Below are positions 42,623 to 45,869 of a stretch of DNA of 64,000 bases, in pieces. The translations under genes and the position numbers were made by a program. Positions within the stretch are counted from its first letter, which is position 1. Each line of letters starts with the position of its first letter. The notes beneath the pieces were generated by a model. It did not search any database, was not told the DNA's origin, and saw nothing but the letters and a program-made list of their open reading frames with translations. Source of the stretch: Colwellia psychrerythraea 34H (lineage in GTDB: Bacteria > Pseudomonadota > Gammaproteobacteria > Enterobacterales > Alteromonadaceae); the NCBI RefSeq assembly GCF_000012325.1, contig NC_003910.7, positions 4,588,001 to 4,652,000 of the forward strand, read 5' to 3'.

Positions 42623-43138
42623 ATGATTACCTTTGTTCACGAGCTTATAAGCCACAGTGTACAACGCTCTCCCGAAGCAATTGCGCTGCAAGTTAAAAAT
42701 ATGAGCTTGAGCTACGCCCAGCTTAATGAAAAAGTAACTAAGGTAGCGCAAGCTTATGCTTCACTCGCCATTACACGCGGCGATCGCATTGGTATTTATA
42801 TTAGTAAAATCATCGATAAAAAAGTGTCTCGATTTACCAATTATTTAGTTTGTGATGGCGGCTTACACCACCATCTAGCTAACTCTTGTAATTTTGGTCA
42901 ATTAATACGAAAAAACTACCCCGTAGCTATTAGAAATAAACTCAAGGAGGGTGTTCAAGAACTCGTTAACATTGTCGGTCCCATATGCAACCCGCTTGAT
43001 ATTTTAGCTGATAAAATAATGTTACCTAAAGCAAGTATGGGCGATTATGTTGTTGTCTTTCAATCGGGGACCTATGTTGCGACAGCCAGCCCTAAGGATC
43101 TTCTTAGTCAGCCACAAGTAAGTGAACTATTAATTTAA
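42623..43138 (+). pseudogene. In-frame relic: acyl-CoA ligase start fused to PLP decarboxylase end
   Basis: This open frame of 171 residues is two partial genes joined. Residues 1-60 match the N-terminus of AMP-forming acyl-CoA ligases (FVHELISHSVQRSPEAIAL, SYAQLNEKV, GDRIGIYI). Residues about 57-171 match the C-terminal part of type III PLP decarboxylases of the exosortase-A kind (IDKKVSR, DGGLHHHLANSCNFGQ, VGPICNPLDILADK, VVFQSGTYVATASP). The ATP and acyl sites of the ligase and the PLP lysine domain of the decarboxylase are absent, so neither enzyme can work. In exosortase loci ligase and decarboxylase genes are neighbours, so a deletion of about 2 kb or more is the simplest origin. A ribosome site is kept, and the frame is open. 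Confidence 0.82.
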
Positions 43139-43226: not shown

Positions 43227-44051
43227 ATGAACTGGAACAAACGATTATTAGACACCCCTATTATTGGTGATATCACCAAAAAAATTGTCTCAGCTAAGGC
43301 GAGTAGAGAGGCGCATAATATATCAGATCATTTTACGCAGTTTTTACAGCCTTGTGTTGCCGTCAGCCAAACCTTAAAAGAAGAAGCATTTAAAATTCGT
43401 CATAATGTTTACTGTGAAGAACTTGCTTTTGAAGAGGTTAGAGACAATGGCCAAGAAACAGATGAATTTGATCACCAATCAATGTTTTCTTTAATCAAAC
43501 ATAAACCGTCAGGTACATTTACTAGTTGTGTACGCTTAGTCACTTCAAGTGGCCCTGATGAATTACTTCCTATTGAGAAGTATTGTATGGGGTCGATCAC
43601 TAACGAAGAGCTTAGCCCTAAACGCTTTAATCGCAATGAAATAGCAGAAATATCACGTTTAGCCGTTAAATCTGATTTTCGTCGCCGTAAGGCCGATAAC
43701 TATAAAGGCTCAGGTACTGGCGTTATCAGTGAAATTACCTATTCAGAAACCGAATTACGTTGCTTCCCCTTCATAGCCATAGGATTATATATGGCGGCAG
43801 CCACTATGAGCATGAATACCGGTATTCGTCATGTTTATGTGATGATGGAGCCACGACTTGCCCGTAGCATGAAATTTATCGGTATTAATTTCCAGCAACT
43901 AGGTCCCCCTGTTGATTATCATGGTTTACGCGCCCCTTATTATATTAATCCTGAAATTTTTATGAAAAATCTCTCTCCTGGTTTTAAAAGCCTTTTTAGT
44001 ATAATTGAAGAAGACATTTGCTCACAACTGAATCAATTAGATTTAGCCTAA
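43227..44051 (+). CDS. PEP-CTERM/exosortase-type N-acyl amino acid synthase
   Basis: The 274-residue protein belongs to the exosortase-associated acyltransferase family (TIGR03694 type), GNAT-fold relatives of FeeM and of autoinducer synthases. Members studied make long-chain N-acyl amino acids, often N-acyl tyrosine, from acyl-ACP. Typical segments are EEAFKIRHNVYCEELAFE (near 55), DEFDHQSMFSLIKH, FTSCVRLVTS, RFNRNEIAEISRLAV and the C-terminal MEPRLARSMKFIGI. The length is normal and no change is seen in the core. It follows the relic by 88 bases and precedes an FAD oxidase by 34 bases, so the latter two probably are one transcript. Confidence 0.85.
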   Translation: MNWNKRLLDTPIIGDITKKIVSAKASREAHNISDHFTQFLQPCVAVSQTLKEEAFKIRHNVYCEELAFEEVRDNGQETDEFDHQSMFSLIKHKPSGTFTSCVRLVTSSGPDELLPIEKYCMGSITNEELSPKRFNRNEIAEISRLAVKSDFRRRKADNYKGSGTGVISEITYSETELRCFPFIAIGLYMAAATMSMNTGIRHVYVMMEPRLARSMKFIGINFQQLGPPVDYHGLRAPYYINPEIFMKNLSPGFKSLFSIIEEDICSQLNQLDLA

Positions 44052-44085
44052 CAAAATTACAGCGGTAAACCACTAAGCACCTCTT

Positions 44086-45759
44086 ATGCCACAGAAACTT
44101 ATTCCTCTCATTGAAAATGTATTAACAATTGATTCGAGTTTATCATTTGATCCTCAGCAAGTTTCTCGCTTTATGCTTGGCACTGAAGGATTGACTTGCT
44201 TTGAAAATAAACAAAGAAGTATATTTGCCGTAATTACACTAACTCAGTCCCATGAGATAAAAGCACTACTTGATTTGGCCAACCACTGTGCGACCGATCA
44301 AGAGCTCGCCTTTTCTCTTTATCCTATTAGCACAGGGAAAAATTGGGGTTATGGCACCAGCCAACCTGCTGGCACAGCTAAAAACATTATTCTTTTGGAT
44401 TTAGGTCAATTAACCGATATAAAACACTTTGACAGTGAACTTGGTTTAGTCACGATTGAACCAGGGGTTACTCAACAGCAATTGTGTGATTATTTACAGC
44501 TACATAATCATGACTATATGGTGCCTGTCACTGGGGCAGGACCAGACTGCTCTATACTAGCCAACGCCTTAGAACGCGGTTACGGTATAACACCTTATAC
44601 AGACCATTTTGCTGCCGTTAACAGTATTCAGGGGTATTGGGCCAACGGCACGCCTTATCAATCAGCCGTCAATGAACTAGATGCCAGCGATGATAAGTTT
44701 GTCGATAAAACGTTTAAATGGGGACTTGGCCCCTATTTGGAAGGACTATTTACCCAGTCTAACCTTGGTATAGTGAGCCAAATCACCATTCGGTTAGCCA
44801 AGAAGAAAGCTGATTTCACTTCATTTTTTATCCAAATGGAAGATGATGCATTACTTGAACAAGCGGTTCCCTTAATACGACAAGTATTACAAGACTATGA
44901 AGGTATTGTTGGCTCAATTAACTTAATGGATCAACGCCGTTTATTATCAATGTTTGCCAAAAATCCCAATGGTAACGACGTCCATCAAGTAATGGAAAAT
45001 CAAGATATTGAAAGATTGGCTAAAGAATTACAAGCGCCTAACTGGACCATTGTTGGTAGTATTTACGGCAGTGTCGGCGTGGTCAAAGCAGTAAAAAAAG
45101 AAATTAACCGTATTTTTAAACAATTGCCTTGTAAACGAATATATTCAAATAGCTTAATCATCGTTGTAGCGAATAAAGTTATTAAATACATCCCCTCATT
45201 ATTGATTAATAAAGTGCCGCCTTTATCTGTGGCAGTAGAGCAACTGGATTCGTTTAATAAGGGTAAAGAGATTATGCTGGGCAAGCCGAATAAGGTTGCC
45301 CTAAAACTCGCTTACTGGCGTCATACCGAGACTGCAAGTTTTGATAAAAGTGAATTATCACCAGGAAAAGATGGCTGCGGTTTACTTTGGTATGCTCCAT
45401 TAATAACGATGAAAGCAAAGAAAATGCGAGAGTTTGTCGAGTTTGTTAGAGAAACTTGTCCAAAATATAATATTGAGCCTTTCATCACCTTTACTAACCT
45501 AAAACACGACTGCGTTGATAGCACTATTCCTATCGTTTTCGATTTAGGTAATCCTCAGGCAGTCGCCGATGCTCATGATTGTTTAAAAGCTCTGGTAACA
45601 GAAGGTCTTAAAAAAGGCTTTGTCCCCTACCGTCTTAATATAGATCAACAACAGTGGTTACTTAATAAAGACAGTGATTTTTGGCAAACAGTCAATAAAA
45701 TCAAGGGCAGCTTAGATCCACATAATATCCTCAGCCAAGGAAGATATAATCCTAGCTAG
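44086..45759 (+). CDS. FAD oxidase of the VAO / p-cresol methylhydroxylase family
   Basis: The 557-residue flavoprotein oxidises a para-substituted phenol, judged by its family. The FAD domain (about 40-240) has TGKNWGYG (83-90), IEPGVTQQQL and ALERGYGITPYTDHF (161-175). By alignment from memory with vanillyl-alcohol oxidase, Tyr89, Tyr515 and Arg516 (PYRLN) correspond to the phenolate-binding residues and Asp173 to the catalytic base. The usual covalent flavin residue could not be placed. It lacks a signal peptide, so it acts in the cytoplasm. It directly follows an N-acyl amino acid synthase, so N-acyl tyrosine is a plausible substrate; this is inference. A terminator follows. Confidence 0.85.
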   Translation: MPQKLIPLIENVLTIDSSLSFDPQQVSRFMLGTEGLTCFENKQRSIFAVITLTQSHEIKALLDLANHCATDQELAFSLYPISTGKNWGYGTSQPAGTAKNIILLDLGQLTDIKHFDSELGLVTIEPGVTQQQLCDYLQLHNHDYMVPVTGAGPDCSILANALERGYGITPYTDHFAAVNSIQGYWANGTPYQSAVNELDASDDKFVDKTFKWGLGPYLEGLFTQSNLGIVSQITIRLAKKKADFTSFFIQMEDDALLEQAVPLIRQVLQDYEGIVGSINLMDQRRLLSMFAKNPNGNDVHQVMENQDIERLAKELQAPNWTIVGSIYGSVGVVKAVKKEINRIFKQLPCKRIYSNSLIIVVANKVIKYIPSLLINKVPPLSVAVEQLDSFNKGKEIMLGKPNKVALKLAYWRHTETASFDKSELSPGKDGCGLLWYAPLITMKAKKMREFVEFVRETCPKYNIEPFITFTNLKHDCVDSTIPIVFDLGNPQAVADAHDCLKALVTEGLKKGFVPYRLNIDQQQWLLNKDSDFWQTVNKIKGSLDPHNILSQGRYNPS

Positions 45760-45800
45760 CTATTTTTTGAACCTAACATATTAGTCATATGTTTTAATTG

Positions 45801-45837
45801 AAAAAGCCCGACAAGCTTGTGCTCATCGGGCTTTTTT
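45801..45837. terminator. Bidirectional terminator after the FAD oxidase
   Basis: A stem AAAAAGCCCGA/TCGGGCTTTTT with a loop of about 14 bases (itself holding AAGCTT) has A and T runs on the two sides. It lies 41 bases after the oxidase stop, in the convergent gap with the HDOD gene. Confidence 0.88.
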
Positions 45838-45869
45838 AATTAAGCGTTTACTTGAGTGACTACTTTGTA

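Follow-up and report, generated by a model that had tools for sequence, protein, structure and literature searches.

The closest described parallels to the locus reported here are FeeG, which shares one cluster with the N-acyl amino acid synthase FeeM, and CndG, the enzyme that oxidises an acyl tyrosine on the way to chondrochloren, a methylated and halogenated product. For FeeG, oxidative decarboxylation of N-acyl tyrosines is reported, with N-acyl 4-(2-aminovinyl)phenols as the products (2022 review, PMC8762209), and the chondrochloren enzyme is described as a flavin adenine dinucleotide (FAD)-dependent oxidative decarboxylase of acyl tyrosine, with a quinone methide that sheds its carboxyl group spontaneously; a carboxyl that is blocked stays, and a proton leaves the side chain in its place (2010 review, PMC3039461). 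According to a figure legend, an oxidative-decarboxylase clade lies within the VAO/PCMH enzyme family (PMC7617285). Tyrosine-acylating synthases exist in other systems (PMC4897644), and the same source cites, in a one-line mention, the work of Craig, Cherry and Brady (2011) on an exosortase-linked synthase. Clusters proposed for dehydrotyrosine lipids, including the thalassotalic acids, are described as holding a ThiF protein and a TyzC-like nitroreductase beside the synthase, in Thalassotalea PP2-459 too (PMC12479983). Here we analyse a stretch of 64,000 nucleotides from Colwellia psychrerythraea 34H (contig NC_003910.7, positions 4,588,001 to 4,652,000; hereafter the window), in which the gene for an exosortase-type N-acyl amino acid synthase (NAS) is followed by that for a VAO/PCMH-family flavoprotein (OX). 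We propose, with middling confidence, a two-step pathway in which NAS makes N-acyl tyrosine and OX converts it, via a quinone methide, to N-acyl dehydrotyramine.

An earlier note on this DNA had described two intact genes, 34 bases apart and ending in one terminator, the first encoding an exosortase-type synthase; both parts of that description were confirmed. The two open reading frames (ORFs) are intact on a common strand with 34 bp between them, and NAS scores 297.3 bits on TIGR03694 (cut-off 111.95), with only a weak match to the FeeM family. The ratio of nonsynonymous to synonymous substitution rates (dN/dS) between the window and four relatives was 0.08–0.10 for NAS and 0.05–0.09 for OX, with 0.02–0.07 for three flanking genes; NAS and OX are under purifying selection.

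Among 37 genomes of the same genus (G000–G036, where G000 is the window's own genome; L numbers denote extracted loci), NAS was found in 36 and an intact OX in 22. Each of the 25 intact OX loci in the genus has a NAS match within 300 bp, and so does the broken OX of G005. Beyond the genus, seven of 12 OX loci have a NAS at ≤350 bp and three at 1.1, 4.3 and 9.0 kb; the other two have none on the contig. Gene order varies between NAS–OX (G196, G047, G535), OX–NAS (G484, G547, G581) and divergent (G144), and in G776 OX precedes NAS with one opposite-strand open frame between them. The pairing is thus conserved and recurs in several bacterial groups, with two NAS families involved, which bears out the adjacency across genomes that the earlier note had offered as a check.

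In an even sample of 398 genomes from the phylum, 11 carry an OX-clade match of >350 bits, and a TIGR03694 protein above cut-off is present in 10 of these 11 versus 21 of the 387 others (Fisher p = 1.9e-11, without kinship correction and covering TIGR03694 alone). The eleventh carrier, G741, has a FeeM-type NAS (156 bits). A search of the genome contigs with one protein as query gave two loci; an alignment query would reach further. Left out of the 12-locus count were G268, for its fragmentary OX and missing TIGR03694 match (detailed below), G239 (L058), G293 (L059) and Neptunomonas japonica. L058 and L059 stand nearer to the OX clade than do the remaining 14 rows of the outgroup, yet lack the full phenolate clamp described below; G239 has a TIGR03694 protein on another contig and G293 has none. 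In N. japonica (L091/G798 contig 13, 1650-3194), a TIGR03694 NAS and a FeeM-type NAS are directly adjacent, and neither lies within the 17.6 kb taken around its OX.

The second NAS family also appears on a Methylorubrum populi plasmid, one of three records examined among 75 plasmid records that matched. On pMPPM04 (L132 4074-11340), a FeeM-family NAS, an S-adenosylmethionine (SAM) methyltransferase, an OX-clade oxidase, a halogenase-like flavoprotein, an amidase and a flavodoxin-like protein form one run; the 12.8 kb viewed has 11 annotated features, none of them an exosortase gene. The GNAT protein scores 133.7 bits on the FeeM family and matches FeeM itself (PDB 2g0b) with E 1.8e-7. The oxidase shares 33% identity with OX and groups with the OX clade, on a long branch; it keeps most clade motifs, with Ser-Lys replacing Trp411-Arg412. 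The cluster has the look of a route to a halogenated and methylated acyl dehydrotyramine, and the association of OX-type enzymes with NAS of two different families speaks for the NAS product as the substrate of OX. The other two records, from Megaera and Azospirillum, gave weaker matches (25% and 28% identity) that were outside the tree and not counted as clade members; no NAS-like product was found among their annotated neighbours.

OX itself is a VAO/PCMH flavoprotein, as had been claimed. It has no NCBIfam match at E 0.01; it carries PF01565 (FAD_binding_4, 39.4 bits), and its nearest solved structures, by sequence and by fold, are nsVAO, PCMH, EUGO and VAO. A profile search matched it to 1wve at 299.6 bits, in two stretches. 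Its structural model (predicted local distance difference test, pLDDT, 83.8; predicted template modelling score, pTM, 0.85) matched EUGO in Foldseek with E 1.5e-35 and gave template modelling (TM) scores, normalised by the model, of about 0.72–0.80 against the PCMH/EUGO/VAO/nsVAO group. With an FAD domain and homology over both FAD and cap parts, OX classes as a VAO/PCMH 4-phenol oxidoreductase.

Tyr89, Tyr515 and Arg516 occupy the VAO/PCMH phenolate clamp sites and are present in all 19 aligned relatives and in all 36 clade rows; we take them to share the roles of VAO Y108, Y503 and R504. Judged by these conserved residues, the active site should be able to hold a phenol. The earlier note had aligned the same three residues and Asp173 with VAO: the three stand, and Asp173 was rejected as the counterpart of the VAO base Asp170, since the alignment places Gly150 at that site. 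Asp173 sits instead in a separate PY(T/G)(D/E)HF motif, with Asp or Glu among relatives. The flavin N5 pair is D170/L171 in VAO, A154/P155 in PCMH and D150/P151 in VAD (PMC7617285, Table 1), and printed alignments read with that table put Gly150-Ala151 at the site in OX, which therefore lacks the Asp/Glu-Leu pair of VAO-type enzymes in the narrow sense. Thr149-Gly150-Ala/Ser151 marks the clade in 35 of 36 rows, the remaining row having His-Gly-Gly.

No residue for a covalent flavin link was found: Leu433 stands at the His site (VAO 422) and about Ser425 at the Tyr site (PCMH 384). The FAD of OX is probably not covalently bound, as in nsVAO, which also lacks the linking residue and shows that the link is no strict family requirement (PMC7617285). 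Further clade marks are Pro426 (35/36 rows), Asp429 (36/36) and Cys431 (34/36); of the 16 outgroup rows, 14 are gapped at 425, 426 and 429 and carry Gly or Asp at 431, and L058 and L059 share Pro426, Asp429 and Cys431. Cys431 (window 45376-45378) lies two residues before the VAO flavin-linking histidine site. G721, on a long branch, was present in the first tree and absent from the second, and one duplicate row was removed. Among the homologues listed (120 of 4543 and 120 of 2190 matches), many are labelled 4-cresol dehydrogenase (hydroxylating) by their source, and the names FeeG and CndG are absent, most rows being without names.

In the proposed pathway, NAS would join a long-chain acyl group, presumably from acyl-acyl carrier protein (acyl-ACP), to an amino acid (most likely tyrosine) through its amino group; we infer tyrosine as the acceptor because OX has a phenol clamp and because synthases elsewhere acylate it. 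OX would bind the phenol of N-acyl tyrosine as phenolate via Tyr89, Tyr515 and Arg516, and a hydride would move from the benzylic carbon to the probably non-covalent FAD, leaving a para-quinone methide. This would most likely lose CO2 and re-aromatise to an N-acyl 4-(2-aminovinyl)phenol, a dehydrotyramine enamide, because the alpha-carboxylate is free, as reported for the substrates of FeeG and CndG. Oxygen would be a plausible electron acceptor, because the VAD variant P151G, whose second N5 residue is small, functions with it (PMC7617285).

OX might alternatively desaturate N-acyl tyrosine and leave its carboxyl in place, which would give N-acyl 2,3-dehydrotyrosine, a product like the thalassotalic acids to which the earlier note had pointed. 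The same enzyme family and the same quinone methide would serve, a blocked carboxyl does stay (PMC3039461), and N-acyl dehydrotyrosines are known marine products (PMC12479983). We nevertheless consider this outcome unlikely. With a free carboxylate, the flavoenzymes of this kind described in these reviews decarboxylate, and the dehydrotyrosine producers described carry ThiF and a TyzC-like nitroreductase, neither of which was found by Pfam among the ten ORFs flanking the pair (the rest of the genome was not searched); together, the behaviour of FeeG and CndG and the ThiF–nitroreductase equipment of the dehydrotyrosine clusters favour decarboxylation over desaturation. The pathway of the earlier note thus keeps its conserved pairing, its fold and its phenolate clamp, and loses the Asp173 alignment and the thalassotalic-acid product.

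A more sceptical account, rather improbable in our view, has NAS acylate some other amine or amino acid and OX act on another phenol or on a lipid that is not phenolic; a shared exosortase context, not a common pathway, would then account for the pairing. Some observations lend it weight. The sequence gives no readout of NAS acceptor specificity: searches of the PDB with the window's NAS returned only weak matches to acyl-homoserine lactone (AHL) synthases, so its acceptor site could not be compared. Several neighbours of OX are PEP-CTERM proteins and long tetratricopeptide repeat (TPR) proteins of exosortase settings. NAS and OX lie on different contigs in G051 and G741 (the OX contig of G741 is 6.2 kb). 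The split contigs and the unread acceptor also count against the proposed pathway, as do the following points. In G268, an assembly 87% complete, OX is a C-terminal fragment at the end of a contig (129.6 bits), and TIGR03694 gave no match. Wider synteny is shared by most of the in-genus loci, and their counts are not independent. The Gly-Ala N5 pair matches none of the seven enzymes tabulated in PMC7617285, FeeG and CndG were compared with OX by described reaction only, and the substrate and product of the pathway are themselves inferred from sequence and analogy. Lastly, OX is absent from 13 of the 36 NAS-bearing genomes and broken in one more, which makes it an optional step.

The separate-substrates account has to contend, for its part, with the clamp residues kept in OX, with the M. 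populi plasmid, where an OX-clade enzyme is paired with a FeeM-type NAS and tailoring genes and no exosortase gene was viewed, and with the absence of any OX without NAS among the 37 same-genus genomes. NAS without OX, and never the reverse, is the pattern expected of an optional downstream step. In G005:C18:13000-14600 (L044), stops and frame breaks interrupt OX and the adjacent NAS is open, so NAS can persist without OX.

Hydroxylation of the benzylic carbon, as by PCMH, to give N-acyl beta-hydroxytyrosine or further cleavage, seems distinctly doubtful. PCMH is among the closest solved structures to OX and hydroxylation is typical of these enzymes (PMC7617285, Scheme 1 legend), but OX retains neither the N5 pair of PCMH nor the Tyr384 site at which PCMH links its flavin, and the Pfam scan of the ten flanking ORFs turned up no gene for cytochrome c, for which reason a PCMH with a cytochrome partner was dropped. 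It is very unlikely that the oxidised acyl-tyrosine serves the exosortase itself, for example as a lipid anchor for PEP-CTERM proteins or a matrix cross-linker, with an unusual OX flavin site perhaps linked through Cys431.

The features of the locus are collected in Table 1. None of 200 shuffled sequences folded as stably as the terminator hairpin; a simple pattern scan for terminators found 2 in the window against 2.6 expected, which does not exceed chance level. In the Pfam scan, the ten flanking ORFs encode trypsin-like, HDOD, M23, polysaccharide deacetylase and other proteins, apparently unrelated to NAS and OX.

Table 1 Coordinates of the NAS–OX locus and associated features, counted from the first nucleotide of the window
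Feature	Position	Strand	Details
NAS, exosortase/PEP-CTERM-associated N-acyl amino acid synthase, GNAT type	43227..44051	+	274 amino acids; TIGR03694; PF13444, PF21926, PF00765
OX, VAO/PCMH-family flavoprotein, predicted phenol oxidase on NAS product	44086..45759	+	557 amino acids; PF01565; PCMH/EUGO/VAO homology
Intrinsic terminator after OX	45796..45842	+	Hairpin and U-run, -25.8 kcal/mol, z -8.22
Remnant ORF, start of TIGR03098 acyl-CoA ligase fused to end of TIGR03099 pyridoxal phosphate (PLP) decarboxylase	42623..43138	+	Domain matches, blastn

A second NAS–OX locus lies elsewhere in the window's genome (G000:C1:520966-524183; L021: 6937-10190), with an OX 60% identical to that of the window. 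Its two NAS genes stand in tandem with an overlap of about 55 bp, and the OX is followed on the opposite strand by genes for a PEP-CTERM protein and a long TPR protein; G032 (L043) has a similar locus with a single NAS.

The remnant ORF upstream of NAS joins, in frame, the first ~70 residues of the ligase to the last ~118 of the decarboxylase, with about 2.3–2.4 kb missing between them by comparison with relatives; aligned by blastn to G007, whose operon is intact, the window has about 20 bp that match both sides of the junction. Sixteen of the 23 same-genus genomes with examined OX loci have ORFs of 530–547 and 416–430 amino acids, matching the remnant, directly before NAS and OX. In L025, the one locus tested, both exceed the TIGR03098 and TIGR03099 cut-offs. 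A gene of 272–279 amino acids comes first in 12 of those 16 genomes and is patatin-like in L025, again the one tested. The ligase/decarboxylase pair is shortened or gone in seven genomes: the window's, G032, G010, G020, G021, G014 and G005 (loci beyond the window: L022, L026, L034, L037, L038, L044). The missing stretches have different ends in the first four, and in the last three nothing before NAS aligned. G007 and G026, which come next to the window and G032 in OX identity (93% and 91%), retain the complete ligase/decarboxylase pair, so its loss occurred more than once. Six of these seven genomes keep both NAS and OX intact, the exception being G005 with its broken OX; this persistence, with the low dN/dS, marks NAS and OX as the retained core.

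A PF09721 exosortase is present in 20 of the 23 OX-carrying same-genus genomes (one with OX broken); G001, G004 and G005 yielded no match. With one exosortase scored per genome, the 14 of these 20 with intact ligase and decarboxylase gave 326–340 bits on TIGR03109 (exosortase A). G010, G020, G021 and G014 have a divergent exosortase A (301–312 bits), and G000 and G032 a different exosortase (157.5 and 158.6 bits, below the 208 cut-off). In a quick exosortase tree the two sets are split by one branch (Shimodaira–Hasegawa-like approximate likelihood ratio test, SH-aLRT, 84), the six forming two clades of their own. The ligase and decarboxylase seem tied to one exosortase lineage, and NAS and OX seem to survive the change.

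For the acyltransferase of exosortase (PEP-CTERM) systems, a dedicated phenol oxidase that accompanies it in several lineages points to a tyrosine acceptor and an oxidised lipid end product. If so, the label 4-cresol dehydrogenase (hydroxylating) on many OX homologues would need correcting. Among the papers listed by our searches, we found no title or opening of an abstract joining an exosortase-type NAS with a VAO/PCMH oxidase, which is weak evidence of novelty, as most subscription papers were outside the search.

Set against known systems, OX resembles the VAO/PCMH 4-phenol oxidoreductases in its fold, FAD domain and Tyr/Tyr/Arg phenolate clamp, and differs from them in having no His or Tyr flavin link, a Thr-Gly-Ala/Ser N5 loop and the residues P426, D429 and C431. 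The thalassotalic acid, stieleriacine and kyonggic acid clusters likewise pair a NAS with an oxidising partner whose presumed substrate is N-acyl tyrosine, but that partner is described as a nitroreductase with ThiF, not a VAO-type flavoprotein (PMC12479983). The exosortase-linked synthase of Craig, Cherry and Brady (2011) is, judged by its title, like ours in NAS type and exosortase context. FeeG with FeeM, from the fee cluster of soil environmental DNA (eDNA), and CndG of Chondromyces crocatus are alike in oxidising N-acyl tyrosine with loss of CO2, the reaction proposed for OX; here, by contrast, the NAS is of the TIGR03694 type and several relatives have PEP-CTERM/exosortase contexts. What is new is the recurrence of a NAS and VAO/PCMH oxidase pair in exosortase (PEP-CTERM) settings.

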